Positions 1 to 13,487 of a DNA stretch of 56,158 nt are shown here, piece after piece. The notes under the pieces were generated by a model. The model had not been told where the DNA came from, made no database searches, and saw only the letters and a program-made list of their open reading frames with translations. Source of the stretch: Candidatus Aegiribacteria sp. (GTDB lineage: Bacteria; Fermentibacterota; Fermentibacteria; Fermentibacterales; JCC-6); assembly GCA_030600545.1 (NCBI GenBank), contig JAUVLV010000010.1, positions 1 to 56,158 on the forward strand, written 5' to 3'. A program made the translations under genes and the position numbers. The first letter of the stretch is position 1; each line of letters begins with the position of its first letter.

Positions 1-1179
1 GCATCGGGCGGAAACATATACGCAGGAAGATATCATGTATTCCCGAATTCGGGTGCTGCCTACATCCAGGACAAGATGGAATACAGGGGAATGATAGTTA
101 ACGCCGGACTCCGCTTCGACTATTATGACTCGAACTTCGACGAATATCCCGCGGATATCACCGATCCAATAATTCCCGGAACGGAGCCAGGAACACCCGG
201 ACACATCAAGAATCCGATAAGCGTTCCTGTCAAATACCACCTGAGTCCCCGCGTGGGATTCTCACATCCGATAACCGAGCGCGATGTGCTTCATTTCACT
301 TATGGTCACTACTTCCAGACCCCTGACTTCGATAACATGTTCAGTGGTTCAAACTACGACCTTTCCGGTGCGTTCCCCGTCGTTGGAAACCCGGATCTTT
401 CGGCCGAGGAAACGATTTCCTACGAAGTCGGCGTGAAGCATCAGTTCGATGATGTCACAATGATAGATATCACCGGTTATTACAAAGACATCACAGGTCA
501 GCTCGACATGCAGAACAACTTCTACAGTGCTGTCGATGCCTATGACCTCTACATCAACGCTGATTATGGAAACGCAAGAGGAGCCGAGCTCACTTTAACC
601 AGGCGTCCCAGCGACTTCTGGTCAGGCAGCGTCAACTACAGCTATTGCATCGCTATGGGTAAGAGTTCTTCTGCAGGGCAGAACTACACTTACGTATGGG
701 CGAACTGGATAATTCCCAAGAAGGAATCTCCTCTCGACTGGGACCAGAGGCATACTATCAACGCAGACTTTGATTACCGTATTCCACAGGGTGAAGGACC
801 AAGAATTGGTGACACACCTTTCCTTGAAGGATTCGGTGCTCATGTCTCATGGTCCTACGGAAGTGGATTCCCATACGATGAAGACGCCCAGGGAACTGCC
901 ATGCCTGAGATCAACGGTAAAAGGTATCCATGGACCATGACGACTACTCTGAAGGTCAACAAGAACTTCTGGATTGGTTCAGTAACACTCAATGCCTACT
1001 GTCAGATCAACAATCTGTTCAACAGGCAGAATATCAATACGATTATTGATACAGGATGGTACGATGCTGACCAGGATGGTGATGGTGAGCCTGATCATGA
1101 TCCGACTGGCAGGATGAGTAATCCATATGTATTCAGCCAGCCTCGTGCGATAAAGTTTGGTCTGGGATTTGAATGGTAA
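1..1179 (+). CDS. TonB-dependent outer-membrane receptor, C-terminal part (5' end outside window)
   Basis: The reading frame is open from base 1, so the gene begins upstream of the window and only the last ~392 residues are visible. What remains looks like the second half of a TonB-dependent receptor barrel: alternating amphipathic strands, many Tyr/Asn/Asp residues, stretches such as LSPRVGFSHPITERDVLHF and NPDLSAEETISYEVGVKHQF that are typical of TonB receptor barrels, and a final strand ending in an aromatic residue (LGFEW) as outer-membrane barrels do. The plug domain and TonB box are not visible, so the substrate cannot be named. It lies 66 bp upstream of exbB in a run of same-strand genes that includes its energising complex. 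An acidic, calcium-site-like DADQDGDGEPDHD stretch near the C-terminus probably sits in an extracellular loop. Confidence 0.85.
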   Translation, partial: ASGGNIYAGRYHVFPNSGAAYIQDKMEYRGMIVNAGLRFDYYDSNFDEYPADITDPIIPGTEPGTPGHIKNPISVPVKYHLSPRVGFSHPITERDVLHFTYGHYFQTPDFDNMFSGSNYDLSGAFPVVGNPDLSAEETISYEVGVKHQFDDVTMIDITGYYKDITGQLDMQNNFYSAVDAYDLYINADYGNARGAELTLTRRPSDFWSGSVNYSYCIAMGKSSSAGQNYTYVWANWIIPKKESPLDWDQRHTINADFDYRIPQGEGPRIGDTPFLEGFGAHVSWSYGSGFPYDEDAQGTAMPEINGKRYPWTMTTTLKVNKNFWIGSVTLNAYCQINNLFNRQNINTIIDTGWYDADQDGDGEPDHDPTGRMSNPYVFSQPRAIKFGLGFEW

Positions 1180-1245
1180 ATTGAATTCTTCCGCTCAGTA
1201 ACAGCTGTACAGCTAATGCTGAACGTAAAGAAGGAGTGATAATAG

Positions 1246-2091
1246 ATGCGAAAATTTCTGCTACTGTTCCTCTTGATTACTGCCCTTGTATGGGCACAGT
1301 CGGAGGAATCCAATCCCGCTGAAACCGCAGATGAAGCTATTGCGGCGGAGATTGAAGGTGAACAGGCTGAACCGGCAGAAACCGTTCAGGAGGAATCGGT
1401 TGTTGAAGAAACAGTCGACGAAACTCCGGAAGGTGAAGAAGTTGAACGGGCACAGAGCGCCAGCATGGATCTGATGGATCTATTCTTAGCAGGCGGACCT
1501 TTTATGTACCCTCTTCTACTCGCTTTGCTTATCGGTATAGCCGTGACGGTCGAGAGGTTCATTTCTTACAGAAAAGTTAAAGTAAGTGTTGGCCCCTTCC
1601 TCGAAAAAATAGGCGGATTCATCCGCAAAGGAAATGTTAAGGGAGCCGAAGAACTGTGCGAACGCACAAGAGGCCCTGTAGCTGCAATAATGCACGCAGG
1701 CCTTCTGCGCCACGATAAAGGGCTTGAAGCAGTCGAAAAGGCTGTTGAGAGTTCAGGCGGAATTGAGATGGCATATCTTGAAAAGGGTATTGTCGTACTT
1801 GCCTCGGTATCGAGTATTGCCCCTATGCTGGGTTTCCTCGGAACCGTCTCAGGTATGATAAGAGCCTTCGGTGAAATTGCCGCCGCAAAGAACGTTGAAG
1901 CAAGTCTTGTTGCTGGTGGTATACAGGAAGCCCTGATCACTACCGCGACAGGTCTTACAATAGCAATCCCGATCCAGATGGCACATAACTACTTCATATC
2001 CAGGATCGGCAAGTTCGTGATCGATATGGAAGAAGCCAGCATATTCCTTGTGGATACACTGGCTGAAATGGAGCACTTGAAGCAGCTTTAA
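1246..2091 (+). CDS. exbB: ExbB/TolQ/MotA-family proton channel with acidic N-terminal extension
   Basis: The pentameric inner-membrane proton channel subunit of the Ton motor, 281 aa. It starts with a signal-peptide-like segment (residues 1-17, ending VWAQ), followed by a ~55-residue stretch very rich in Glu, Pro and Ala (about 20-75). The MotA/TolQ/ExbB core follows, with TM1 near 84-105 and the paired helices PMLGFLGTVSGMI and ALITTATGLTIAIPIQ near 192-245. The conserved Thr residues of these two helices line the proton path in ExbB. The start is supported by AAGGAG 12 nt upstream of ATG 1246. The next gene begins 9 bp after the stop, so translational coupling is likely. The pre-core acidic segment would be periplasmic after signal cleavage; similar extended ExbB forms are known in other Gram-negatives. 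Confidence 0.92.
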   Translation: MRKFLLLFLLITALVWAQSEESNPAETADEAIAAEIEGEQAEPAETVQEESVVEETVDETPEGEEVERAQSASMDLMDLFLAGGPFMYPLLLALLIGIAVTVERFISYRKVKVSVGPFLEKIGGFIRKGNVKGAEELCERTRGPVAAIMHAGLLRHDKGLEAVEKAVESSGGIEMAYLEKGIVVLASVSSIAPMLGFLGTVSGMIRAFGEIAAAKNVEASLVAGGIQEALITTATGLTIAIPIQMAHNYFISRIGKFVIDMEEASIFLVDTLAEMEHLKQL

Positions 2092-2100
2092 GGAGCATTG

Positions 2101-2850
2101 ATGCGGATACGTAACAGACCGAGAGCAAGCGGGGCTATACCCGATTCCTCAATGTCCGACATTGCGTTCCTGCTGTTGATTTTCTTCCTGGTCACAACGA
2201 CCTTCGAAGTTCAGAAGGGCATATCCTACAAACTTCCGAAAAAGCCCGACATAGAAACCGTAGAGGTTGTAATTGACGAATCTAACAGGCTTGTCATGAC
2301 CATTAAGCAGTGGGGAGCCCATGAGTACGTGGTACTGATAGATCAGGCTCCACCCGAGGGCCCGCTGCGCAGAGCAAGGGCTGGAGAAGATGTAAGTCTC
2401 CAGGATACAACTCTGCAGAATGGTATAAGAACACTGGCTGCGGACAGGGCTGAGCCCATAGATGCAGTTGAAGACAGGCTTATGAACAACCTGGAAGTAG
2501 CAAAAGGTCTTCCTTCTGGAACTTTCAGTTCCCTTGAAACTGCCATTGCCGCAGAGAATCTGGTGCCCCTGATTCGTCCCGGTATTATCAGGACATATCT
2601 CGGCGCTGATACTCCAATGGAAGATACCCCCATTTTCGGAGAGGTAGCCTTTGGAGATACCCTGGTACTCTCAGACGCGAGACAGGGAGAGATTGCATCC
2701 GCGGTTAGAGAGAGCGAGCTTGTTGTTATTCTCAAGTTCTTCCCTGACTGTGATTACGAGGGCATGGTTCATGCTCTTGATGTCCTCCGCATGAATGGCG
2801 TGAGCAGGACAGGTATCACAATTCAGGAGCGGATGGGAGGTGGCGCATAA
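2101..2850 (+). CDS. exbD: ExbD/TolR-family biopolymer transport protein, long form
   Basis: First of two adjacent ExbD/TolR proteins, which form the dimeric stator partner inside the ExbB pentamer. A single N-terminal TM (about residues 20-36, SDIAFLLLIFFLVTTTF) carries the essential Asp as D20, where protonation drives the motor. The periplasmic part is unusually long: 249 aa against ~140 for common ExbD. About 100 extra residues (roughly 75-175) lie between the first strand and the usual C-terminal fold, and the C-terminus (VILKFFPDCDYEGMVHALDVLRMNGVSR) is a standard ExbD ending. The start was set at ATG 2101 rather than the in-frame TTG 2098 because GGAG lies 5 nt before the ATG. The stop overlaps the ATG of the next gene by 1 nt. 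What the insertion does is unknown. Confidence 0.9.
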   Translation: MRIRNRPRASGAIPDSSMSDIAFLLLIFFLVTTTFEVQKGISYKLPKKPDIETVEVVIDESNRLVMTIKQWGAHEYVVLIDQAPPEGPLRRARAGEDVSLQDTTLQNGIRTLAADRAEPIDAVEDRLMNNLEVAKGLPSGTFSSLETAIAAENLVPLIRPGIIRTYLGADTPMEDTPIFGEVAFGDTLVLSDARQGEIASAVRESELVVILKFFPDCDYEGMVHALDVLRMNGVSRTGITIQERMGGGA

Positions 2851-3314
2851 TGAAGTTCAAGAGCAGGATGAAGGTTGGAAGCACTATCTTCACAGGAACA
2901 ATGGCTGATATTGTATTTCTTCTTCTGGTGTTCTTCATGGCTACCACCCTCTTCAAAGAAGACGGAGGACTCAGAGTCCGCTTCCCACAGGCGCATTCAC
3001 AGGTAATGAGTGAACTGGGAAAGCAGTTCCTTACCGTGACCGTCTGGATAAAGCAGGTTGAACCGGGGAATGATGACAGTGAACTCGTTGCGAGAATCGG
3101 CGATTACGACATGCCTGCTGATCAGGTATCAGAACAGCTGACTCGTTTGAGCAGCAAGTTCTGGCGTGAGCAGAACAAAGAACTTGATGTTGTTGTGCTC
3201 AACGTAGATTCGAGGGTTCCTATGGAAGATATGGTTAGTCTTTTTTACTCTATGCGGTTCGAGGAGATCTACAGCATTCAGTTCAATGCTGAAGAACTCG
3301 GACTGTACAACTGA
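2850..3314 (+). CDS. exbD: ExbD/TolR-family biopolymer transport protein, short form
   Basis: Second ExbD, 154 aa, close to the usual family length. An N-terminal TM, ADIVFLLLVFFMATTLF, carries the catalytic Asp at position 20. The periplasmic domain ends with the typical pattern DVVVLNVDSRVPMEDMVSLFYSMR. It is translated from an ATG that overlaps the previous stop codon (TAATG), so the two ExbD proteins are probably made in a fixed ratio. ExbD pairs of this kind are common in FCB bacteria, where a heterodimer is thought possible. The two copies here are clearly different in sequence and length, so they are not a recent duplication. Confidence 0.92.
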   Translation: MKFKSRMKVGSTIFTGTMADIVFLLLVFFMATTLFKEDGGLRVRFPQAHSQVMSELGKQFLTVTVWIKQVEPGNDDSELVARIGDYDMPADQVSEQLTRLSSKFWREQNKELDVVVLNVDSRVPMEDMVSLFYSMRFEEIYSIQFNAEELGLYN

Positions 3315-3322
3315 AGGGGGGA

Positions 3323-3991
3323 ATGATGGCTGAGAACAGAACTAACTTCGGGCATTCTTCCCTGAACTTCGAATTGGGAGTAGTGATAGGACTTGCCATT
3401 CTGATAATCTTTTTCGAGCTTATCCCGCCCAGCGAGATGGGAAGGCTTTCTACACGAACATCCGATTCCGAAATGGAAGCAGTTGAAACGGATCTTGCAT
3501 TCGATGATACTGTGGAAGAACAGGAAGAGGAAGTCGAGGAAGAACAGGAAGAGTTAGAGCAGGAAACCGAAGAGATGGTTGAGGAAATCAGTCAGGATAT
3601 AACGTTGTCACTGGATGCCGATACAACCGGTCTTGAAACAGTTGAAACGGTTGACCAGGGTGAAGAGCTTGATACAAGCCAGTCGGAAGAAATGGGACCT
3701 CCCAGGTTCATGCCTGCCGAGGTGTTTCCGAACTGCACCTACAAGCCAACTCCCGGTTACCCGGAAATGGCTGCTCAGGCCGGAGTGGAGGGAACAGTCA
3801 CCCTTTGGGTGTACGTTTCCGCCAGCGGTAACGTTTCCGATGTAAGGCTTTACAACTCCAGCGGTGTTAATTCGCTGGATGAAGCTGCTCAGTCGGCGGC
3901 GTGGAACACAAGATGGACACCTGCCCAGAATAATAGTATTCCGGTAGGTGTATGGACAACACTGACATACGAATTTGTCCTAACCGATTAG
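3323..3991 (+). CDS. tonB: TonB-family energy transducer with Glu-rich spacer
   Basis: TonB transduces the ExbB/ExbD motor output to outer-membrane receptors. This 222-aa protein has one N-terminal TM (about 15-34, FELGVVIGLAILIIFFELIP), a periplasmic linker (about 50-110) and a C-terminal TonB domain (about 135-222) with the hallmark YPEMAAQAGVEGTVTLWVYV followed by a DEAAQSAAWNTRWTPA segment. The linker contains runs of Glu with Gln (EEQEEEVEEEQEELEQE) instead of the Pro-rich spacer of classical TonB, and is probably a long acidic helix or disordered tether. Two ATG codons stand in tandem (3323 and 3326), preceded by GGGGG. It lies 8 bp after the short exbD, completing an exbB-exbD-exbD-tonB set. 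Confidence 0.92.
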   Translation: MMAENRTNFGHSSLNFELGVVIGLAILIIFFELIPPSEMGRLSTRTSDSEMEAVETDLAFDDTVEEQEEEVEEEQEELEQETEEMVEEISQDITLSLDADTTGLETVETVDQGEELDTSQSEEMGPPRFMPAEVFPNCTYKPTPGYPEMAAQAGVEGTVTLWVYVSASGNVSDVRLYNSSGVNSLDEAAQSAAWNTRWTPAQNNSIPVGVWTTLTYEFVLTD

Positions 3992-4105
3992 TTAATTGAT
4001 GATGGAAAGAAAATGTATAACTACAATAGATCGCGGACATTACGGAGGGAAACCAGAAAAGAACTCCCTGTGGCCGCGAAATATGAATTGGAGGTGAAGG
4101 AGAGT

Positions 4106-6358
4106 ATGAGGAACTCCAGTTACATTCGCGGGTTCCTGGTACTCACGGTGCTTGCAGTGTTTACACTGTCAGGTACCGGACTTGCGAGGGAAGTGCAGGA
4201 AGTAGCAATGCCGTTTGGCGGTGGGACAGACCAGGACAGACCACCTGTAGTTACTATCCTGATGAACCTCAGCAACGTTTGGAGTGCCTTTTTTAACATG
4301 GGCATATATGGTGACCCATGGGTCAACTACCCATCAATGGAATGGCCGGGAGGAGAGGGCAGCAGCTATCTCTGGAGTGGCGATTTCATGTCAAGTTGTT
4401 ACGGACCGGTTACCGTATGGGGAGATTCTGTTGCGCGATGGGCCAGCTGCAGTGACTACGGAAACTGGGAGCTTCGTCCCAGCGTAGGCTATCCCGCAGA
4501 AAAGGTCAATCCGGGACCGACAGCGCTTGAGGAAACTCATTACGGGTTTGATGATTGGTACGGTACATACAATCCAAACCCGTACGGATTATTCGTTTAT
4601 AACGAGAACTACGATTGGGGGACTCCCGGTTACAACAGCTTCATATCGCAGGATTACAACATCATGCACTTCAGCGATAAGGGAAATCCAGGAGAGCCCC
4701 TTGGCGCTCTCTTAATTGGCATGAGAGGTGACTGTGATATCGCTACTGCAGATGTAGTTGCGAACAACCTCGATGACCTTGTATACTACGATGGTCATGC
4801 CATATGGTGTAACGATCCTGCCGCAACCTTCGAGTACTTGTTCGATGGCAACCCCCCCAAGCAGGCCAGTACACAGGACATATACACATATCAGCAGAAT
4901 CCTGACAATCCACTTGATGATGAAGATCCTGAGAACATCTACTACTACTACAACTATCTGGGTGATGACGGAAGATTGGATAACGACAATGACGCGAACG
5001 GCGTCAGCGATCACTTCACGATTCTGTTCAAGACGATGAAAGCAACCGGTGACACCGTGTGGCTTCCATTCAATACGGCGGGGCTTGTCCCCTTTGCCGA
5101 CGGAATGCCTGAGTACAACTGGAAGCAGACTGTAGGTGACACCGTTTTCCACGTTGTGCCCAGGAACATGAGTTACATGTGGGACAGCGACAATCCTTCG
5201 TCCAGTGCTGATGACAGTGGCGAACCCACAATTTCACCTCCCTGCAATGGTTACATTGGATGGAGACTGCTTGATTTCTACATCGTGAAGGCTAACGGAA
5301 CCATCGAACGCCCGATTGATGTATACAATTACCCGATTCCTATTTCCCATTCCTGGTGGAACTGGGAAAGCGATCCGGGTACCGATAACGAGAAGTACAA
5401 CTACATGTGGGGAAAGAACCCCGATATGAACGGGCGGCACAGTGCGCCCATGTATCTTTCGGACTGGGTCGGAAACGAATATGCACCCGATGCATACGTA
5501 CCGAAAAACCCCGGACCTTTCCCAATAGTCTATGACAACCCCCTGGCACTGGATTATCCTGTCTTTGACTACAGGTTCCAGCTTTCGGCAGGACCTGTCA
5601 ACCTTGAGGACGGAGACAGTCTTCACGTAACAGGCGGTTGGGTACTTGGCCTCGGCCTTGCAGGACTACGCCAGTCCGCAGATGATATGCTTGACGCATT
5701 TTATCGTGGTGGCGGATGGAGTGTCCCACAGCTTCCACCTGCACCGATCCTTTTCTACTCAGCAGGAGACGGACAGGTGAAGCTTGAGTGGGGTTCCAAT
5801 GCGGAATCCTATGATCCACTGGGTGGATACAACATATACAGAACAACCTTCGAGCCCTCCGGCTGGGGGAAACCGATAGCTACGGCAGATCTAGGAACCT
5901 TCACATATATGGACACGACCGTCACAAACGGTTATCCTTATTACTACGTTGTCTGCTCTTACGATTCCGAGACGGAAGTCGAAAGCACCAAATCCAACTA
6001 CAAGCAGACACTGGAAGGAACTCCAGTTGCCGTAACACCGGTTTTGGGGAAAAATGCCAACTGGGTTGAAAACGTAGCAGTAGTACCCAACCCCTACAGG
6101 GGTTCGGCCCGATGGGAGCAGACATACCTCGACAAGATCGCTTTCATCAATCTGCCCGCCATGTGCAATATTCACATTTACACTCTTGCCGGGGATCACG
6201 TGATCACCCTTGAACACAATGACTTCAGTGGACAGTCAGGCACAGCGTTCTGGGATTTGGTCAGCAGAAATGATCAGGAAGTAACATCCGGTCTCTACAT
6301 TTATCGTGTTGAGACTCAGGATGGTTACGTTGTCGGCAAGTTTGCCATCATAAGGTAG
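4106..6358 (+). CDS. Secreted protein with fibronectin-like domain and Por/FlgD-type C-terminal sorting domain
   Basis: A large exported protein, 750 aa. The start was placed at ATG 4106 (GAAGGAG 4 nt upstream), which opens a clean signal peptide (MRNSSYIRGFLVLTVLAVFT, cleavage near GLA-RE). The longer frame from 4013 would put a charged, non-hydrophobic leader in front of it. Residues ~40-550 are rich in Trp, Tyr, Gly, Asp and Asn and match no fold I recognise. At ~555-645 there is a fibronectin type III-like module (PPAPILFYSAGDGQVKLEW ... YNIYRT ... YYYVVCSYD). The last ~85 residues (VVPNPYRGSARWEQ ... FINLPAMCNIHIYTLAGDHV ... SGLYIYRVET) have the form of the FlgD-like/type A sorting domain used by the Por (type IX) secretion route. 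The next gene encodes a PorV-like protein, which agrees with surface delivery. Function is unknown. Confidence 0.8.
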   Translation: MRNSSYIRGFLVLTVLAVFTLSGTGLAREVQEVAMPFGGGTDQDRPPVVTILMNLSNVWSAFFNMGIYGDPWVNYPSMEWPGGEGSSYLWSGDFMSSCYGPVTVWGDSVARWASCSDYGNWELRPSVGYPAEKVNPGPTALEETHYGFDDWYGTYNPNPYGLFVYNENYDWGTPGYNSFISQDYNIMHFSDKGNPGEPLGALLIGMRGDCDIATADVVANNLDDLVYYDGHAIWCNDPAATFEYLFDGNPPKQASTQDIYTYQQNPDNPLDDEDPENIYYYYNYLGDDGRLDNDNDANGVSDHFTILFKTMKATGDTVWLPFNTAGLVPFADGMPEYNWKQTVGDTVFHVVPRNMSYMWDSDNPSSSADDSGEPTISPPCNGYIGWRLLDFYIVKANGTIERPIDVYNYPIPISHSWWNWESDPGTDNEKYNYMWGKNPDMNGRHSAPMYLSDWVGNEYAPDAYVPKNPGPFPIVYDNPLALDYPVFDYRFQLSAGPVNLEDGDSLHVTGGWVLGLGLAGLRQSADDMLDAFYRGGGWSVPQLPPAPILFYSAGDGQVKLEWGSNAESYDPLGGYNIYRTTFEPSGWGKPIATADLGTFTYMDTTVTNGYPYYYVVCSYDSETEVESTKSNYKQTLEGTPVAVTPVLGKNANWVENVAVVPNPYRGSARWEQTYLDKIAFINLPAMCNIHIYTLAGDHVITLEHNDFSGQSGTAFWDLVSRNDQEVTSGLYIYRVETQDGYVVGKFAIIR

Positions 6359-6371
6359 GAGAGGAGTGACC

Positions 6372-7355
6372 ATGAAGTATACAGGAATAGTCCTGACAGC
6401 AGCGGTCGCCGTTTTCCTGCTGTTTCCGGTCTCTGCAGAAGCAAGCTCTTTTGCAAAGGTTGGAACTTCTGGCGCACAGTTCCTGAAAATTGGACTGGGT
6501 GCCCGCGGAACCGCAATGGGTGGTGCTTTCATCGCTACGGCTGATGATCCAAGCGCCGCATTCTGGAATCCTGCATGTCTTGTAAGAGTACCCGGAACAC
6601 AGGTACAGTTTACGGGCATGCAGTGGTTTGCGGACATACTCTACGGCGGCGGTATCGTATCCCATGAAGTTGAAGGGGTAGGTATCTTCTCTGCACAGTT
6701 CGCAATGCTGCAGTCCGGCGATATGGACGTAACCACTGTTGCAAATCCAGAAGGAACTGGAGAAACTTTCTCATGTAATGACATGGTGGCAGGTATCTCC
6801 TTTTCCAGAATGCTTACCGACAGATTCAGCGCCGGAATGACGGTGAAGTATGTACGGGAGCAGTGGGATGATATTTCCGCTGGCGGTATCGCTGTTGATA
6901 TTGGTACCCTTTACGACACGGGTTTCAAAACCCTGCGTATAGGTATGACAATTCAGCACTTTGGAGCAGAAATAACTCCAGGAGGAGAATACAGAACGTA
7001 TTACAGCGGAGACGATTCAACAGAAGTGTACGAATCCTACTCGATGCCAATGATTTTCAAGCTTGGTATGGCTATGGATATAATCAACAGAGGCCCGCAT
7101 TTTCTGACGGTTGAAGTTGATGGTATTCATCCCAGCGACAATGTAGAGCAGCTTGGAGTCGGTACCGAGTACTGGTACAACAATATGTTCGCCCTGCGAG
7201 GCGGCTATCGTATAAATACAGACGAAGAAGGTCTTACCGCCGGAGCGGGATTCAATATCCCTGTAAGCGGAAAGACTATATCACTTGATTATGCGTATGC
7301 GGACTGGAACAGGCTGGACATGGTTCACCAGGCCAGCCTGGGGTTCGTATTTTAG
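6372..7355 (+). CDS. PorV/PorQ-like outer-membrane beta-barrel protein
   Basis: 327 aa, with a signal peptide (residues 1-24, ending AEA-SS) followed by KVGTSGAQFLKIGLGARGTA and MGGAFIATADDPSAAFWNPA. This block is diagnostic of the PorV/PorQ/UPF0164 branch of FadL-like barrels. The rest is a run of amphipathic strands ending in LGFVF with a terminal aromatic, as expected for an outer-membrane barrel. In type IX secretion PorV acts as a shuttle that receives cargo with C-terminal sorting domains. Its position directly behind one such cargo gene (13 bp) and upstream of another supports that role here, but related proteins outside that system are just called 'PorV/PorQ family', so the transport role is inferred. 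The ATG at 6372 has GGAG 6 nt upstream and is preferred over the in-frame GTG at 6366. Confidence 0.78.
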   Translation: MKYTGIVLTAAVAVFLLFPVSAEASSFAKVGTSGAQFLKIGLGARGTAMGGAFIATADDPSAAFWNPACLVRVPGTQVQFTGMQWFADILYGGGIVSHEVEGVGIFSAQFAMLQSGDMDVTTVANPEGTGETFSCNDMVAGISFSRMLTDRFSAGMTVKYVREQWDDISAGGIAVDIGTLYDTGFKTLRIGMTIQHFGAEITPGGEYRTYYSGDDSTEVYESYSMPMIFKLGMAMDIINRGPHFLTVEVDGIHPSDNVEQLGVGTEYWYNNMFALRGGYRINTDEEGLTAGAGFNIPVSGKTISLDYAYADWNRLDMVHQASLGFVF

Positions 7356-7370
7356 CTGACTGATAATTGT

Positions 7371-7395
7371 CGGGGCAGGTAAGAATCCTGCCCCG
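7371..7395 (+). other. Intercistronic stem-loop
   Basis: A perfect 9-bp stem (CGGGGCAGG / CCTGCCCCG) with a 7-nt loop lies between the PorV-like gene and the first GWxTD gene. It has no T-run, so it is not a canonical Rho-independent terminator. It could stabilise the 3' end of the upstream mRNA or reduce expression of the downstream genes. It ends only 6 bases before the Shine-Dalgarno of the next gene. Confidence 0.6.
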
Positions 7396-7409
7396 GTCGG
7401 AAGGAATGA

Positions 7410-8555
7410 ATGACACTTCTTGCGCTGGTGTTAACTGTCATCACAGGATTCCAGGTTAACTGGAATGCTGAACCTGCCAGAGGGCAGAACGAAGGCATAG
7501 TACATATTACTGTGCAGTTCATCGAAGAGGATCTTCTCTTTGTTATGGAAAACAGCGGTGAAACTGCCTTTTGGGAAGTTGCAGCTGCTATCGATGGTGA
7601 TTATACCGCGCGAATCAGTGGTTCGGTGAACAGAAGCGAATTACCTCTGACAAAGGAAATATCCATTTCTGATGTTCAGCCTGGAATTCATCTGTTGACA
7701 GTAATGGTAGGAGACCTGGAATCAGGCAGAAGTACCAAATGGGAAGAAACCATTGAAGTATTACTGCTGGACAGTACATCCTGGTCATCAGGCAATCTTC
7801 AGATCTCTGGAGGATATTATCAGAGAGCTTCAGGTACAATTGAAGTTATCTGGTTTATGTATCCTCCAGATATGGAAGCTGAAGAAGCTGAATCTCTTTC
7901 AGCCGCCTACGCCCTTCGGGACGAGGCAGGAGTTACAAAGAGAGAAGGCTGGATTGATATGATATCTTCAGGGAGTGCGTACAGGGGAGAAGCAACACTT
8001 GATATCAGTAATCTTGATGCAGGCAAGTATGAAATACTTGCTGTTATCGTTTCTGATTATAAGATAGCTGCGACTTCAAATGCTGATCTTCAGCTTCTTC
8101 AGGCATGGGATGTCTGGGGAGAAAATCCTGATCTCACAGAAACTCTGATAAGACCCATTGCCAGCCCTTCGGAACTGGATGAACTGGAAAATGCGGAAGG
8201 GCCATCCAGCAGGAGAGCTTCGATGGCTGAGTTCTGGCATAAGAGGGATCCGTCACCGGGCACTGTGCAGAATGAATTTCTGGAAATGTACATGGCAAGG
8301 CTTGACTACATAGAGGATAACTTCTCAATGCTCAATACTATGGGTATCAATACCGATCAGGGCCGTGTATTCGCCCTGCTTGGTGAACCCGATATGATTG
8401 ACTCCAGACCCCTCGAAACATCAACTCGGCCTACTCAGGTATGGACTTACTGTTCACCTGCCATAGAAGTGTGCTTCATCGATTATCTGGGTTGTGGAAC
8501 ATTCGAACTCGCAACAGATTGGGAGGAGGTTCAGTGTATCTATGAGAGGCATTAG
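7410..8555 (+). CDS. GWxTD domain-containing exported protein (first of pair)
   Basis: 381 aa. It begins with a short signal-like segment (MTLLALVLTVITGFQV), then about 230 residues of beta-rich sequence resembling Ig-like repeats. The C-terminal ~115 residues form a GWxTD-type domain: an EFWHKRDPSPGT ... NEFLEMYMARLDYI segment and then GINTDQGRVFALLGEPDMI. In this copy the name-giving motif reads GINTD, with Ile in the Trp position. GWxTD domains have no established function and are found mostly in FCB-type and acidobacterial genomes. ATG 7410 is preceded by AAGGA. The 3' end overlaps the start of the second GWxTD gene, so the two are almost certainly co-translated partners. Confidence 0.82.
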   Translation: MTLLALVLTVITGFQVNWNAEPARGQNEGIVHITVQFIEEDLLFVMENSGETAFWEVAAAIDGDYTARISGSVNRSELPLTKEISISDVQPGIHLLTVMVGDLESGRSTKWEETIEVLLLDSTSWSSGNLQISGGYYQRASGTIEVIWFMYPPDMEAEEAESLSAAYALRDEAGVTKREGWIDMISSGSAYRGEATLDISNLDAGKYEILAVIVSDYKIAATSNADLQLLQAWDVWGENPDLTETLIRPIASPSELDELENAEGPSSRRASMAEFWHKRDPSPGTVQNEFLEMYMARLDYIEDNFSMLNTMGINTDQGRVFALLGEPDMIDSRPLETSTRPTQVWTYCSPAIEVCFIDYLGCGTFELATDWEEVQCIYERH

Positions 8556-9837
8556 TATTCTTTGTATGCTTGCTATTTGTGCGGTGTTAAATAGTTCGGA
8601 TCTGGCGTCTGTCAGCACCGGAGATATCCGTTTCGGAATAGACACAGCACTGTTCAACTATACGGGAACAGATACTCTGGGCCTCGAGATTTACGAACAG
8701 CTTAATATTGACCAATTTTCAGCTGGCCAGGATTCGGTTGTAATATTTACGACGACAATAATCCTGATTTCTGAGGATGGCGATACTACCGCTGTTGATC
8801 AGTGGAATTCTGAAATCAGCTGGGCTCCGGGAAGGTCAGCGGTCAACAGTACCGTCCTTCCTGTGGTACCGGGTAGTTACATCCTTGCGGTTACTGTTAC
8901 GGATACAGGTAACGGGCAGCAGGGAACCGTAACCAGGAACCTGATAGTAGAATCCGCTGGAACTCTCAGTGAAATCGAACTTGCCCGTGCCGTAGTCCCG
9001 TCCCCGGTGGAATCAACCAATCCCCTTAAAAAGGGAGAAGTTCTTGTATTCCCCGCGGCCGATGGAAGTTATGAACTTCCAGAGGAGCATATGGCCTACT
9101 ATTACGTTGAGATCTATAATCTTGGAGGCGCTTCAGTCGAACTGCAGGGACGCCTTGAAACATCCTCAGGTGAAACGGTTTTCGCACGGCCCTGGGTATC
9201 ACTTACGATACCTGAAGGAGCGGAAGCAGTTGGACTGGTAGACAGCCTTGATCTCCGCGTTGCGCGCAGTTCGGGATTGCACCGGGTCGTATTCGGCTTG
9301 ATTGCACAGAATGATACCCTCGAAGTAGACAAGTACCTCATGATTGGCAGAAATCTGGAATCGGAGGATGAATTCATCGGTGAAACCACAGGCGAACCGG
9401 TTGAAATACCGTATCCGAACCATTTCCGACTGATTCTGACCGATACCGAGGCTGATCTTTATGACGGTCTCGATTCAGATGGCAGGAAGAGGTTCTATAC
9501 CGTCTACTGGCAGGGGGCTCCCGAACAGCGCGAGTACTTCGAGGAATGCTGCGAAGGCAGCGCAAGATATTCGAGTGGTAACAGAGAAGCCTGGGAAACC
9601 GACCGGGGAAGGGTATACGTTATCTACGGCCCGCCCGATGATATTGAATCAGAACTCTTTCAGGGAACACAAATCCCATATGAGATCTGGTACTATTATG
9701 GAGGCAGGAACGATAGCTTCGTTTTTGCCGACAGAACAGGAGCTGGAAGTTACGAACAGGTTTACTCCTCAGTTGAAGGAGAAATCAGTTATACGAACTG
9801 GGAGAAAATGATCAGTACCACAGGAATTGGTGGCTGA
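8542..9837 (+). CDS. GWxTD domain-containing exported protein (second of pair)
   Basis: 431 aa, starting at ATG 8542 inside the end of the preceding gene (14-nt overlap); GGAGG lies 12 nt upstream. The chosen start gives a signal peptide (MRGISILCMLAICAVLNSS). The first ~290 residues are beta-rich and match no named domain. The last ~135 carry the GWxTD block: FYTVYWQGAPEQREYF, then EAWETDRGRVYVIYGPPDDI and YEIWYYYGGRNDSFVFAD. The two GWxTD genes share this layout but are strongly diverged, suggesting a heteromeric pair rather than a recent duplication. A frame extending back to 8494 exists but has no signal sequence at its start. Confidence 0.82.
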   Translation: MRGISILCMLAICAVLNSSDLASVSTGDIRFGIDTALFNYTGTDTLGLEIYEQLNIDQFSAGQDSVVIFTTTIILISEDGDTTAVDQWNSEISWAPGRSAVNSTVLPVVPGSYILAVTVTDTGNGQQGTVTRNLIVESAGTLSEIELARAVVPSPVESTNPLKKGEVLVFPAADGSYELPEEHMAYYYVEIYNLGGASVELQGRLETSSGETVFARPWVSLTIPEGAEAVGLVDSLDLRVARSSGLHRVVFGLIAQNDTLEVDKYLMIGRNLESEDEFIGETTGEPVEIPYPNHFRLILTDTEADLYDGLDSDGRKRFYTVYWQGAPEQREYFEECCEGSARYSSGNREAWETDRGRVYVIYGPPDDIESELFQGTQIPYEIWYYYGGRNDSFVFADRTGAGSYEQVYSSVEGEISYTNWEKMISTTGIGG

Positions 9838-9951
9838 TGATGCTCCCGGTAATGAGAGGTGATAACGAAAAATGCCCAAATTCAGAAATGACTTTGCGCT
9901 GCATTTAGTTTTGTTCATGCGGTTTGCAGCCGCTGAAATAGGAGGTAAAAT

Positions 9952-12384
9952 ATGAGAATCTTTGCGGGACCGCTCAGGAATGGTTTTCTAACCATCCTGA
10001 CAGCGCTCCTGTTACCGGTACTGGGAATCGGTGTGGCAAGTGCTGATATGAACGTCGGGGACACTGTTGATCTCAAAGTTCCCGATCTTTCGGAGTTTCC
10101 AAATGATATTGAGACTCATCAGTTCACATGCCGTGCACGTACGCCACACGCCTACTGGCTGGTACAGGATACCTGTTCAGTCGATGGCAGTGGCCCAGGA
10201 GTTCAGGATACGACTGTTTGGAATAACCTGATTCATCAGGGGGAACTTGACACTCTGACTTCTGAATTTGAAGGTAGCGGAGTTGATGTATATGGTACTG
10301 TCACCGAATATCTCGGAGATCCCGTGGATACAGACGGAGATCCCCGAATCTGGATCGTGCTTGCTACCATACCTGATCAATACTCGTATAATAATCTTCC
10401 GACTGACAGAAGGACAATGGAGTATGTAAATCCTGATGATGTCAATGGTAGTGGTTTGTTCAACAATCATGATATTATCTACATCAATGTACATACATAC
10501 ACGAGAACTGAAGATAATCTGGCGGTTGCAAAGCAATTGAGAAGATTCTTCATTCCAAACGGACTTGGAGTACTCATACGAACAGCAGTGAAACCTACCG
10601 AGGAGCTGTGGATTGTAAGGGGTCTTGGTGAAGTATGCCAGTACTTCTGTTATGGCATAACAGCAACAACTTCTTACGATCTCGGTATCACTAATGATAT
10701 TCTGAAGTTCTTTAAAAATCCGGAATACGTAATAACTAATTACAGATCTGGTTCTCCAAAATTAGATTTTGCTGGATCAAGAGGACAGTCATTTCTCTGG
10801 ATGATGTACCTCGCTCAGCGCAAAAATGACACTATATTGGAAACAATCGCACAGTCTGATACAACTGGACTACTCAACGTAGCACGTGCCATCGATTCCA
10901 CAGTACCTGACAGTACAGCTGTCCAGACCAACATTGTTCCAATCTATTTTGACTGGCTCGTCTGCAACCTTACCAGCAACTTAAGAGACCCTATGAGTGA
11001 TGGGATATACACGTACGATATTTTCTCGGATACTTCTAACAGCTTTGGTCATATGGACCAGTTACAAGCATTCGAGGGAAGATTCAGCGACGGAGATTAT
11101 CCACTGCCCGTCTGGATTCCCAAATATGGCATAAGCGCACCCATATGGGGTGTGCAGTACGATAAGTTCGAAGGAGACTACAGTAGTTACCCTACTGTTT
11201 ACTTCAACGGAGCTTACGCTGACGCAAATGGTTCCGGAACTCCTATTGACGGAAAATGGACCGCATTTGTTGTGTCTGTTGATACGTTACATGAAAAGAT
11301 CGCTTCCATTACAGAAGTAGCGTTTAACGATCTATATAACGGCTCCTTCGAAATGGCAGGTAATGACTCGTACCTTATTGTGACCAACAACGATGAAGGA
11401 GGTCCTGTTGATCTTCGTTACATCCTGTCTCAGGACGAGGATCTTCCTGAAGTTCTTTTGGCAGCCCATCAGAACTCTATCAACGACCAGTATCTAACTC
11501 TCTATACTACTTTGTTTGATAGTATTCCGGAGGGATTTGACTGGTACGGACCCGTCTTCACGGCTACAGGTCCTGACACCAGCTGTGTTATCGAAATGAG
11601 CACTTTCTACAACACAATCTGGGACTGCAATTTCAATGCCTGGGAAAGTGGGAAATTCACACTGCAGGTAGCTGGATACGACAGCAGCGGCTCCAGTGTA
11701 AGCAAAAGCATGAAAATATCTGTCGGATATGTTAATGCAGGTAAAATGACGCTGAGTGTTAACGGTATCAATCTTGACGTAATGGCCGGAGCAGCTGCAC
11801 CAGGAACTATGGTAAGTCTTTGCGAATCAAGTATTCTTGATCTTGCAATAGGAACACAGGCTCCAGTGGCGAACATTGTGGCTATGATGACCGGAATAAA
11901 TGCCGGTCCTGTAAGTATCCCCAATGTGAACGCAACACTGTCCTTCCCGGCTGAAAACTCTGAAGGTGCTGTATATCGTTATACGGATAACGGATGGGAA
12001 CAGCTGGACAGTTACTTCCAGAACGGAAGAATGTGCGCTCTCGTATCCAAGGGTGGTAACTACGTCTTTGGAGACGCCCCGGGGGTTCATTCTCCTGAGA
12101 TTCCAGCGAACTTCCGTTTCGGTGGAACATATCCCAACCCCTTCAGTGCAGAGGCAGCCATAAGTTTCTCTCTGCCCTCAGCGGGACGTGTTGATGTAAC
12201 CATTTACGATATGAGCGGTCGTGCTGTCAGAACTCTCAATGATACTGAGATGCAGGCAGCAGAACATATACTTATGTGGGACGGACTCGACGAGACCGGG
12301 AATGCAGTAGGCGCAGGAGTATACTTCTGCAGACTGCAGGCTTGTGGAGAGACTGTTACCCAAAAAATGCTCCGGATAGAGTAG
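9952..12384 (+). CDS. Large secreted protein with degenerate metallopeptidase-like region and Por-type sorting domain
   Basis: 810 aa. GGAGG lies 7 nt before ATG 9952 and a signal peptide covers residues 1-31 (cut near ASA-DM). Residues ~35-240 resemble the catalytic part of secreted M30/M6-like peptidases found in sorting-domain proteins: DTDGDPRIWIVLA, then NHDIIYINVHTY, then a helix where HExxH is expected, then EELWIVRGLGEV where such enzymes have a WxNEGxSE-type segment. Here the zinc ligands are absent: the helix reads KQLRRFF (194-200) and the Glu position is Arg223, so it is probably not an active protease. The C-terminal ~85 residues (YPNPFSAEAAISFSLPSAG ... VDVTIYDMSGRAVRTL ... GAGVYFCRL) are a textbook FlgD-like/type A sorting domain. 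It may be a surface adhesin or binding protein; that is inference. Confidence 0.8.
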   Translation: MRIFAGPLRNGFLTILTALLLPVLGIGVASADMNVGDTVDLKVPDLSEFPNDIETHQFTCRARTPHAYWLVQDTCSVDGSGPGVQDTTVWNNLIHQGELDTLTSEFEGSGVDVYGTVTEYLGDPVDTDGDPRIWIVLATIPDQYSYNNLPTDRRTMEYVNPDDVNGSGLFNNHDIIYINVHTYTRTEDNLAVAKQLRRFFIPNGLGVLIRTAVKPTEELWIVRGLGEVCQYFCYGITATTSYDLGITNDILKFFKNPEYVITNYRSGSPKLDFAGSRGQSFLWMMYLAQRKNDTILETIAQSDTTGLLNVARAIDSTVPDSTAVQTNIVPIYFDWLVCNLTSNLRDPMSDGIYTYDIFSDTSNSFGHMDQLQAFEGRFSDGDYPLPVWIPKYGISAPIWGVQYDKFEGDYSSYPTVYFNGAYADANGSGTPIDGKWTAFVVSVDTLHEKIASITEVAFNDLYNGSFEMAGNDSYLIVTNNDEGGPVDLRYILSQDEDLPEVLLAAHQNSINDQYLTLYTTLFDSIPEGFDWYGPVFTATGPDTSCVIEMSTFYNTIWDCNFNAWESGKFTLQVAGYDSSGSSVSKSMKISVGYVNAGKMTLSVNGINLDVMAGAAAPGTMVSLCESSILDLAIGTQAPVANIVAMMTGINAGPVSIPNVNATLSFPAENSEGAVYRYTDNGWEQLDSYFQNGRMCALVSKGGNYVFGDAPGVHSPEIPANFRFGGTYPNPFSAEAAISFSLPSAGRVDVTIYDMSGRAVRTLNDTEMQAAEHILMWDGLDETGNAVGAGVYFCRLQACGETVTQKMLRIE

Positions 12385-12397
12385 GAAGGAGGGAGAA

Positions 12398-13438
12398 ATG
12401 AAACAGATACTAGCCATAGCAATCCTGGGCTCCCTCATGCTGCTCGGTGGTTGTGCTGACAATCCTACAGATATTCCAGATGTAGAAGGATATCAAGGAT
12501 TTGTTGAACTGGGCTGGGAAAAATATCACGATAAAGATTTCGGGATGGCCCTCGATTACTTCATCAAAGCTATCGATATCAACCCATCAAAGCCTGAAGG
12601 ATTTTTAGGCGCCGGCTGGGCATCACTGTACCTGCCTGACGTATGGAACATTGCGGACAACTACTTCTACATGGCAATTCAGCAAAAGACAGGATACTAC
12701 CCATTGAACGGATACACCGAATCTCAGGTTCAGGATACTATGTGGATAACCTTCGATTGTCTGCACCCCGATTTGCCCCCCAGCATCCTGGATCCCATAC
12801 TCAAGCAGACCGCTGACTTCGGTCTTGTCTGGGTAGGGGAGCAGATAGAAGCCATAGTTGGCGAAGTCTCGATGCCCTATCGCTTCAAGCCGCTTAATAT
12901 CGGTGTAATGGCGATATTCGAAGCTGTTAACAGTTATACTACGCTTAACTGTGAAGTAGACAGTATTGCGGGAGGATGGGTGTACATTACCGTTCCTCTT
13001 GGAGTAATGGATATCGGCGGCGATGAATACTACACCTGGATAAATGTTGATAACCAGATCAACTACGATTATCGAGTATTCGATAGATCAGGTTCTCCGG
13101 GAGGACAGATCTTCTACGACGCCCTTGCGGGATGCTGCATGCTGCAGGACATCAGGGGCGAATATGGAGATCCTCTCCTGGGCTGCGTAACAGCCTGGGC
13201 GCTTGACTTTTTGAAAAGCGATTACACCTTCGGTTACGGTTTGCAATACCAAGGGTATGAAGAATTGTCTAATCTTCAGCTGAAGGGTACAGCTGCAGCG
13301 CTGGCCTTCGCCCAGCAATACTTCAGGTTCGCCTGGTTTACATGTACAAGCAGCGGTAGGGGAATGGCTCTTGATCCCAACGACCCTTGCTTTGTTACAG
13401 ATCTGATGTCCGTAATAGAGTTCATGCTGAACAACTAG
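12398..13438 (+). CDS. TPR-containing lipoprotein of unknown function
   Basis: 346 aa. It begins with a lipoprotein signal (MKQILAIAILGSLMLLGGC) with lipobox LGGC and acylated Cys19. Residues ~30-95 form one or two tetratricopeptide-like helical hairpins (GWEKYHDKDFGMALDYFIKA, INPSKPEGFLGAGWASLYL). The rest has no recognised domain. It lies 13 bp after the preceding gene with AAGGAGG upstream of its ATG, and is the last gene before a strong terminator. It is therefore likely the final cistron of the long cluster and an envelope accessory of the sorting or GWxTD proteins, though this rests on position only. Confidence 0.75.
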   Translation: MKQILAIAILGSLMLLGGCADNPTDIPDVEGYQGFVELGWEKYHDKDFGMALDYFIKAIDINPSKPEGFLGAGWASLYLPDVWNIADNYFYMAIQQKTGYYPLNGYTESQVQDTMWITFDCLHPDLPPSILDPILKQTADFGLVWVGEQIEAIVGEVSMPYRFKPLNIGVMAIFEAVNSYTTLNCEVDSIAGGWVYITVPLGVMDIGGDEYYTWINVDNQINYDYRVFDRSGSPGGQIFYDALAGCCMLQDIRGEYGDPLLGCVTAWALDFLKSDYTFGYGLQYQGYEELSNLQLKGTAAALAFAQQYFRFAWFTCTSSGRGMALDPNDPCFVTDLMSVIEFMLNN

Positions 13439-13458
13439 AGAACCGAAAGTTAAGAGTG

Positions 13459-13487
13459 AACCCCCCGGCTCTGCCGGGGGGTTTCCT
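13459..13487 (+). terminator. Rho-independent terminator closing the TonB/GWxTD cluster
   Basis: A 9-bp GC-only stem (CCCCCCGGC / GCCGGGGGG) with a 3-nt TCT loop, flanked by AA and TT that extend pairing, followed by TTTCCTT. It lies 21 bases after the stop of the TPR lipoprotein gene and 25 bases before the end of the convergent minus-strand gene. Confidence 0.9.

Follow-up and report, generated by a model that had tools for sequence, protein, structure and literature searches.

Introduction

SusCD and RagAB are outer-membrane uptake complexes of Bacteroidota. Here, we analyse a stretch of 56,158 nucleotides (the window; contig JAUVLV010000010.1, assembly GCA_030600545.1) from Candidatus Aegiribacteria sp., in which genes for a TonB-dependent receptor (TBDR), a secreted surface protein (ORF781) and an outer-membrane barrel of the PorV/PorQ family (PorV) stand in one cluster with a Ton motor and two GWxTD proteins. 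The same TBDR–ORF781–PorV triad recurs beyond the phylum of the window, and we propose, with roughly even confidence, that it may be the core of a Ton-energised uptake complex in which ORF781 is anchored by a barrel of its own. Two arrangements of the type IX secretion system (T9SS) are also close to the triad. In P. gingivalis, PorU pairs with PorV and PorQ with PorZ in subcomplexes that are read as barrels anchoring surface proteins (PMC5562754). In Flavobacterium, most type B cargo is encoded next to a barrel of its own, and all type A tails use one PorV (PMC12618676). No description of the triad was found in the open literature searched, most subscription papers and all bioRxiv preprints lying outside that search.

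The triad shares features with each of these systems and departs from all of them (G and L numbers denote genomes and loci compared). As in SusCD and RagAB, a TBDR with a CarboxypepD_reg domain (L119, L140) is encoded beside a surface protein, with many co-diverging paralogues in one genome. Unlike them, the triad TBDRs fall far below the SusC model TIGR04056 (44 to 92 bits versus 368; the test was run on full-length relatives, the window receptor itself being truncated, and gave 44.1 bits for L078, 92 for L119 and 70.5 for L164 against a cut-off of 368.25), the partner has no SusD match in Pfam and bears a T9SS-like tail as well as a signal peptide, and the third gene encodes a barrel. As in PorZ–PorQ and PorU–PorV (PMC5562754), a sorting-domain surface protein is found beside a PorV/PorQ-type barrel, which we propose holds it; the tail is nearest to that of PorZ and the barrel scores higher as PorQ than as PorV. 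ORF781 is, however, neither PorZ nor PorU, the pair is coupled to a TBDR, and many copies occur in one KSB1 genome. As with the type B C-terminal-domain cargo and PorP/SprF barrels of Flavobacterium (PMC12618676), cargo and barrel genes are adjacent, the barrel there fixing the final location; in contrast, the triad barrel belongs to the PorV/PorQ family and the tail is type-A-like, a class that shares a single PorV in Flavobacterium. If a type-A-like tail did have a PorV/PorQ-family barrel dedicated to it, the combination would be new.

The gene cluster

The window begins at base 1 of its contig, in a draft genome of 2.29 Mb that is 73% complete. Aegiribacteria are placed in the FCB group by NCBI, and we take the phylum of the window and its relatives to be Candidatus Fermentibacterota. 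The open-frame listing contains 11 same-strand frames between 1 and 13438, from a truncated TBDR to a lipoprotein; a sequence-only reading of the window had named eleven genes and written ten. Families were assigned by Pfam and NCBIfam profile scans with curated cut-offs, and the features are as follows.

1–1179, + strand: TBDR, C-terminal 392 residues, cut by the contig start (TonB-dependent receptor barrel, 104.2 bits)
1246–2091, + strand: ExbB/TolQ-type proton channel (MotA_ExbB, PF01618, 104.5 bits)
2098–2850, + strand: ExbD, long form of 250 residues (PF02472, 43.9 bits)
2850–3314, + strand: ExbD, second copy (PF02472, 52.2 bits)
3323–3991, + strand: TonB (TonB_C, PF03544, 65.3 bits)
4106–6358 (open frame from 4013), + strand: ORF781, a surface protein that is secreted and whose C-terminal tail is PorZ/PorU-like; member of a cross-phylum family
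6366–7355, + strand: outer-membrane barrel of the PorV/PorQ family, which we propose as the dedicated anchor of ORF781 (NF033709, 218.5 bits; its relatives are placed in the PorV tree)
7369–7397, + strand: hairpin between PorV and GW1 with no T-run after it (stem of at least 7 pairs in 35/35 Fermentibacterota loci having both genes)
7410–8555, + strand: GWxTD protein 1 (GW1), with signal peptide, two immunoglobulin-like (Ig-like) domains and GWxTD domain (TIGR04514, 83.8 bits)
8542–9837 (open frame from 8494), + strand: GWxTD protein 2 (GW2), start corrected (TIGR04514, 54.5 bits)
9952–12384, + strand: ORF810, secreted, with type A sorting tail (TIGR04183, 36.6 bits)
12398–13438, + strand: lipoprotein (lipobox LGGC) with a weak TPR match (17.1 bits, cut-off 27.8)
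13458–13484, + strand: strong hairpin closing the cluster, likely terminator with a short T-run (folding)

Several details of the sequence-only reading change with these assignments. Its TonB receptor belongs to the family named, and only the last 392 residues are present since the window starts at the contig end. Of its two sorting-domain proteins, ORF810 exceeds the TIGR04183 cut-off of 23, while the ORF781 tail, at 17.7, does not. The GWxTD genes do overlap, by 14 nucleotides rather than 62, because the most likely GW2 start is the ATG at 8542, with GGAGGAGG before it and a signal peptide after it; the 14-nucleotide overlap is also seen in L072–L076. The lipoprotein has a lipobox, and its TPR match is below cut-off; at the place of the closing terminator stands a strong, G+C-rich hairpin followed by few T, a likely terminator.

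Conservation within Fermentibacterota

Profiles of the eleven proteins were compared with 40 stretches from 39 genomes plus the window, giving 41 loci in 40 genomes; the relatives that share this locus belong to Candidatus Aegiribacteria, Fermentibacter and Sabulitectum, and genomes G020 and G031 lie outside this comparison. Gene order and strand are unbroken, with no internal gap, in 41/41 loci as far as the contigs run. The close-ordered, co-directional cluster is therefore a real linkage, and the suspicion that related genomes might separate its genes found no instance across these loci. All eleven genes are present in 19 of the 41 loci; the last gene is cut by the contig end in G010 and G022, as is the first by the contig start in the window. 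Common descent within Fermentibacterota explains much of this identity of order.

GWxTD matches occur in 39 of 42 genomes (two in 35, one in four and none in three). Among the three without a match, G020 is 66% complete, and in G014 and G037 the contig ends inside ORF781, so that these two are no counterexamples to the order. G014, which is 98% complete, also lacks SprA above cut-off and a window-type PorV among its listed matches, and has PorU-type matches; as its contig ends inside ORF781, loss and an assembly gap look the same here.

The triad in other phyla

The triad recurs, with different flanking genes, in KSB1, Ignavibacteria, Calditrichota and Marinimicrobia. Five genomes from other phyla, picked for holding GWxTD-linked triads, contain 12, 33, 18, 26 and 12 PorV-family matches, some of them fragments or below cut-off; the 33 are found in a KSB1 genome of 3.6 Mb (G043, the genome of L149). 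On 40 stretches from these genomes, 43 PorV genes, mostly from matches above cut-off, were examined. The strict order TBDR–ORF781–PorV holds for 27 of them (15/22 in G043, 3/7 in G042, 3/6 in G044, 5/6 in G045 and 1/2 in G046). The remaining 16 comprise one preceded by ORF781 with no adjacent TBDR found, six with a TBDR directly before PorV and nine with neither.

Distances of the three proteins rise together across the 55 triads that passed length filters (20 from Fermentibacterota and 35 others). Among 14 paralogous triads of one genome the correlations were 0.87 (TBDR/ORF781), 0.89 (TBDR/PorV) and 0.84 (ORF781/PorV), with a permuted mean near zero; for the 35 triads outside Fermentibacterota, permuted within genomes, they were 0.91, 0.92 and 0.88, against permuted means of 0.41, 0.46 and 0.37. 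The p value was 0.0005 throughout, the floor of 2000 permutations. Partial correlations of the ORF781 core were 0.47–0.56 with TBDR versus 0.07–0.27 with PorV. At the level of sequence, co-divergence shows duplication and inheritance as a unit, which is not proof of contact. As the triad is kept together across phyla and paralogues, the genes appear to form a working unit and not a chance neighbourhood. The unit is real and wider than one genome: a multi-phylum triad extended in Fermentibacterota by the Ton motor, the accessory ORF810 and lipoprotein genes, and the GWxTD pair.

ORF781 and its tail

ORF781 (likely start, the ATG at 4106) bears a signal peptide, and no lipobox was seen by eye in its N-terminus. 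A Pfam scan gave no SusD-family match, its only hit being CHU_C at E 0.75. The best NCBIfam match of the tail (residues 684–781) is the PorZ C-terminus, at 24.8 bits versus a cut-off of 260 for NF052228 and over the tail only. PorZ is likewise the best match of the tail in four of five ORF781 proteins (the window, L119, L143 and L140), with TIGR04183 ranking first in L149. TIGR04183 scores of the homologues lie on both sides of the cut-off of 23 (L119, 25.4, and L149, 24.2, above; L143, 20.9, and L140, 16.3, below). The structure model of ORF781 was used solely, and cautiously, for the tail: in a structure comparison PorU came 14th, PorZ 20th and the RgpB tail 49th, amid many fn3 proteins.

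ORF781 of other phyla, a set collected through similarity to the Fermentibacterota profile, is homologous to that of Fermentibacterota over 454 columns (profile–profile probability 99.8%, E 2.6e-28). The homology covers the N-terminal and middle parts, beyond the tail, and we assign the proteins on this profile evidence to one family.

The barrel and the T9SS background

The window barrel belongs to the PorV/PorQ family NF033709 (218.5 bits, cut-off 90) and lies under the models for T9SS PorV proper (NF033710, 91.7 versus 250) and PorQ proper (NF033711, 105.9 versus 220), the PorQ score exceeding that of PorV. A barrel behind a PorU-type gene in another Fermentibacterota genome (G007) shows the opposite ranking (PorV 169, PorQ 69). 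The family has 4–11 matches per Fermentibacterota genome, and six PorV genes at other positions (four in G007, one each in G039 and G003) are not beside a TBDR or ORF781. SprA is above cut-off in 40 of 42 Fermentibacterota genomes, including that of the window (G000), and in all ten other GWxTD-bearing genomes tested. PorU-type matches occur in 42/42 Fermentibacterota genomes, ten of which pass the strict cut-off; in the genome of the window a PorU-type gene lies directly upstream of another PorV, on contig C64.

The receptor and the Ton motor

The full-length receptor relative in L078 starts with a CarboxypepD_reg-like stretch. MotA_ExbB, ExbD and TonB_C in the window are all above Pfam cut-offs. 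TBDRs are scarce in Fermentibacterota, with 2–10 Plug matches per genome in nine genomes; TonB_C has 2–8 matches per genome, and the window tonB is not the sole copy.

Hairpins and transcription

The hairpin at 7369–7397 lies upstream of the GW1 ribosome-binding site. Its stem, counted with G–T pairs allowed, is kept in every Fermentibacterota locus having both genes, while its letters vary between genera (for example GGGGCAGG/CCTGCCCC versus GGAAGGG/CCCTTCC), with 0–2 T in the next ten bases. The mean folding z of this junction is −2.25 over 36 loci, 58% of which are under −2; the other junctions average −0.13 (after ExbD1), −0.19 (TonB), −1.39 (ORF781), −1.46 (GW2) and −0.74 (ORF810), and the region after the last gene −5.29, with 24/24 loci under −2 relative to shuffles. 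All 11 GWxTD-linked triads of other phyla also have a strong hairpin at the PorV/GWxTD junction, followed in nine of them (not L119 or L142), as judged by eye, by a T-rich stretch. A consensus scan found 16 terminator-like sites versus 12.7 in shuffles and 15 promoter-like sites versus 21.2, counts so near to those of shuffles that the scan is uninformative; it does not list the hairpin at 13458–13484.

The sequence-only reading had assumed shared expression of the whole cluster and had singled out 7371–7395 as a place where transcription might stop. One shared transcript for the eleven genes is not supported as stated, given the hairpin conserved in 35/35 and 11/11 loci. At 7371–7395 the hairpin is borne out and a T-run is missing; we have not adopted the label of terminator for it, and transcription may nevertheless stop there. 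Because of the hairpin at this junction, the triad and the GWxTD proteins are probably dosed separately.

GWxTD proteins and their neighbourhoods

GW1 and GW2 are both above the cut-offs of the GWxTD family (TIGR04514, cut-off 28; PF20094), a term that was not found in the open literature searched. The GW1 model (pLDDT 89) shows two Ig-like beta domains and a C-terminal mixed domain. Its 50 Foldseek matches shown are led by tandem Ig-like proteins (TM 0.19–0.23) and are uninformative on the GWxTD domain; when the family profile was compared with solved structures (E 0.1), only positions 78–309 of 438, the Ig-like part, were matched, and the GWxTD region was not. With a signal peptide present and both lipobox and sorting tail absent, the GWxTD proteins are probably soluble and periplasmic. 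A lipoprotein nature was considered and rejected, a lipobox pattern occurring in one of 74 frames outside Fermentibacterota.

An alignment scan covered the best 80 of 193 confirmed GWxTD places, 22 in Fermentibacterota and 58 in other phyla; the latter were ranked by likeness to the window protein and form an uneven sample, some ending near the gene. In 11 of the 58, PorV is directly upstream on the same strand, with ORF781 and a TBDR before it in all 11. Four more have a TBDR directly downstream of GWxTD (L106, L122, L139, L140), and 42 have neither a PorV directly upstream nor a credible same-strand TBDR directly downstream, including L115, where GWxTD sits between two triads. L120 is uncertain, as its TBDR match scores 71 bits and the contig ends 79 residues into it. 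Supposed TBDR neighbours of L135, L146 and L151 (65–73) were not counted; that of L135 is, by Pfam, a CarboxypepD_reg plus TPR protein.

Other neighbours of GWxTD genes vary: L095 (Zixibacteria), for example, has an HlyD–ABC–MacB–MacB series, L133 (Chlorobiales) the tail-specific protease Prc together with a cysteine-synthase-like enzyme, L126 (Rhodohalobacter) PdxA and L135 (Acidobacteria) a TPR protein. In Zixibacteria (L095, L099, L105, L107, L108, L111, L117, L132 and L144) the GWxTD pair follows two genes of about 380–420 residues, which in L095 are the MacB permeases, accompanied by an ABC ATPase and HlyD; ExbB–ExbD–ExbD–TonB lies about 7 kb upstream there. The GWxTD–TBDR–ORF781–PorV cluster of L140 is found under an Actinomycetota title, and its label or binning is doubtful. 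A protein of L197 (1014–2654), directly preceding a TBDR–ORF781–PorV triad, was rejected as a further linkage, its Ig-like part being matched and no GWxTD domain being seen in its C-terminal 220 residues.

The PorV tree, with 42 rows, included seven of the 20 Fermentibacterota rows; the window was left out because its receptor is truncated. One clade of 13 (100/100) consists of the 11 GWxTD-linked triads of other phyla and two triads lacking GWxTD. The Fermentibacterota triad groups with L167, a triad lacking GWxTD (99/97), and L140 belongs to another, third group (99/99). The same three groups appear in a quick TBDR tree. Since Fermentibacterota PorV joins the GWxTD-free L167 rather than the GWxTD-linked clade, GWxTD is ruled out as a fixed part of the triad. 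The grouping cuts against one ancient four-gene unit and supports repeated linkage, in Fermentibacterota, in the main clade and in L140, so that the linkage arose or was lost several times. This repeated linkage in at least three lineages is the best evidence tying GWxTD to the triad, of which it is a recurrent, not an obligate, partner. The suggestion that the cluster is a lead on GWxTD function thus proves half right: the triad is a recurrent neighbour, and 42 of 58 loci have others. As GWxTD partners differ between phyla, a general envelope role recruited by the triad is as likely as a triad-specific one.

ORF810, the lipoprotein and second clusters

Further ORF781 genes of Fermentibacterota were located by profile search, and eight stretches were examined. 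ORF810, lipoprotein and ORF781 genes follow one another in that order on four (L203, L204, L206, twice, and L208), of which three carry a TBDR and none a PorV or GWxTD. Because this second cluster recurs on 4/8 stretches, TBDR, ORF781, ORF810 and the lipoprotein belong together. We take ORF810 to resemble metallopeptidases; its relatives show no HExxH motif in the stretch inspected, and it may be a pseudo-enzyme. The other four stretches hold lone forms of ORF781, of about 630 residues, in which the fn3 and PorZ-like tail is apparently missing. L202, the only one tested, ends in an ordinary type A sorting tail (39.8 bits), which we read as a natural tail swap.

Proposed mechanism and alternatives

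In the arrangement that we infer, with its contacts, anchoring, inward transport, substrate and role for GWxTD, the TBDR would be the transport barrel, powered by ExbB, the two ExbD proteins and TonB, whose genes are inserted between TBDR and ORF781 in Fermentibacterota. ORF781 would be exported, cross the outer membrane via the T9SS translocon SprA and remain at the cell surface, where it would partner the TBDR in binding substrate or form its lid. The neighbouring PorV/PorQ-like barrel would serve as its own anchor rather than as a general T9SS shuttle, holding the uncleaved PorZ/PorU-like tail as PorQ holds PorZ. ORF810 and the lipoprotein may be accessory binding parts of the same complex, and the two GWxTD proteins soluble exported partners, probably periplasmic, under their own control. 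The sequence-only reading had imagined a surface machine importing what its displayed protein captures; a triad that recurs, duplicates and diverges as a unit agrees with this, and transport, capture and complex formation are the parts of it that we propose.

Several observations weigh against this proposal. Co-duplication alone yields correlations such as those above, and partial correlations of the ORF781 tail are about equal with PorV (0.23–0.34) and TBDR (0.22–0.36), so that the pattern of what the tail follows only half fits an anchoring model, in which tail–barrel recognition would be expected. The tail reaches none of the curated cut-offs, whether for PorZ, for PorU or for type A sorting domains, and the ORF781 model is poor (mean pLDDT 57), for which reason no lid-like or ligand-binding fold is seen in it. 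ORF781 paralogues occur beside a second TBDR with no PorV on the stretch (L203, L204, L206), where PorV can at best be shared, weakening the notion of one barrel each; others stand alone (L202, 8385–10283; L205; L207; L209). The hairpin between PorV and GW1 speaks against one common transcript and, with 2–8 TonB_C matches per genome, this motor may serve other receptors.

That ORF781 and ORF810 are ordinary T9SS cargo and the PorV paralogue a general shuttle, with TBDR and Ton genes nearby for regulation only and no complex formed, appears unlikely to us. The phylum has T9SS parts and multiple PorV-family genes, and the shared PorV of Flavobacterium type A tails (PMC12618676) is a precedent. 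A general shuttle, however, needs no copy per cargo, and the triad has been kept, with co-diverging members, across phyla and paralogues; moreover, the six other PorV genes from three Fermentibacterota genomes have neither triad partner beside them.

It is improbable, in our judgement, that the PorV-like barrel, along with the GWxTD proteins, assists in the assembly of TBDR and ORF781 in the manner of accessory BAM parts and lies outside the mature complex. The FadL homologue BamG of Bacteroides binds BamA and the surface protein BamH, and its authors consider a PorV-like role of BamG unlikely (PMC12578637). GWxTD genes beside an export pump (L095) or the Prc protease (L133) would suit such a function, whereas 15 strict triads with their own barrels among 22 PorV genes of one genome fit part-specific pairing better.

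An outward-acting motor, in which ExbBD–TonB and the TBDR push or release sorting-domain proteins in place of PorL/PorM, seems quite improbable. ExbBD and PorLM are related motor types, and motor and cargo genes adjoin in the window. Against this, the TBDR and ORF781 genes of the 11 GWxTD-linked triads outside Fermentibacterota are adjacent, no motor genes intervening (regions further upstream are mostly outside the data), and Fermentibacterota have SprA and PorU-type genes, in a search that did not extend to PorL/PorM. Mere inheritance of gene order, in a phylum that rearranges slowly and among genes that are functionally unconnected, accounts for much of the identity inside Fermentibacterota and is very improbable as the whole explanation, given triads with different flanks in KSB1, Ignavibacteria, Calditrichota and Marinimicrobia and GWxTD genes next to triads in three or more separate lineages.

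Extending the proposal of an anchored uptake complex, we suggest tentatively, as something rather less probable than the proposal itself, that the FCB superphylum and its neighbours possess a second SusCD-like design: a T9SS-delivered lid anchored by a dedicated barrel of the PorV/PorQ type, so that two barrels and one lid make up the complex, with more than 12 paralogues in at least one genome and GWxTD proteins as soluble periplasmic partners. If true, this would join TonB-dependent uptake and type IX secretion, two separate fields, and would explain the dozens of PorV-family genes in some FCB-group genomes, such as the 33 matches in one KSB1 genome. It would also provide a rule for naming many genes of uncultured phyla that carry the labels 'PorV/PorQ family' and 'T9SS sorting domain', and GWxTD function would become testable through defined partners.

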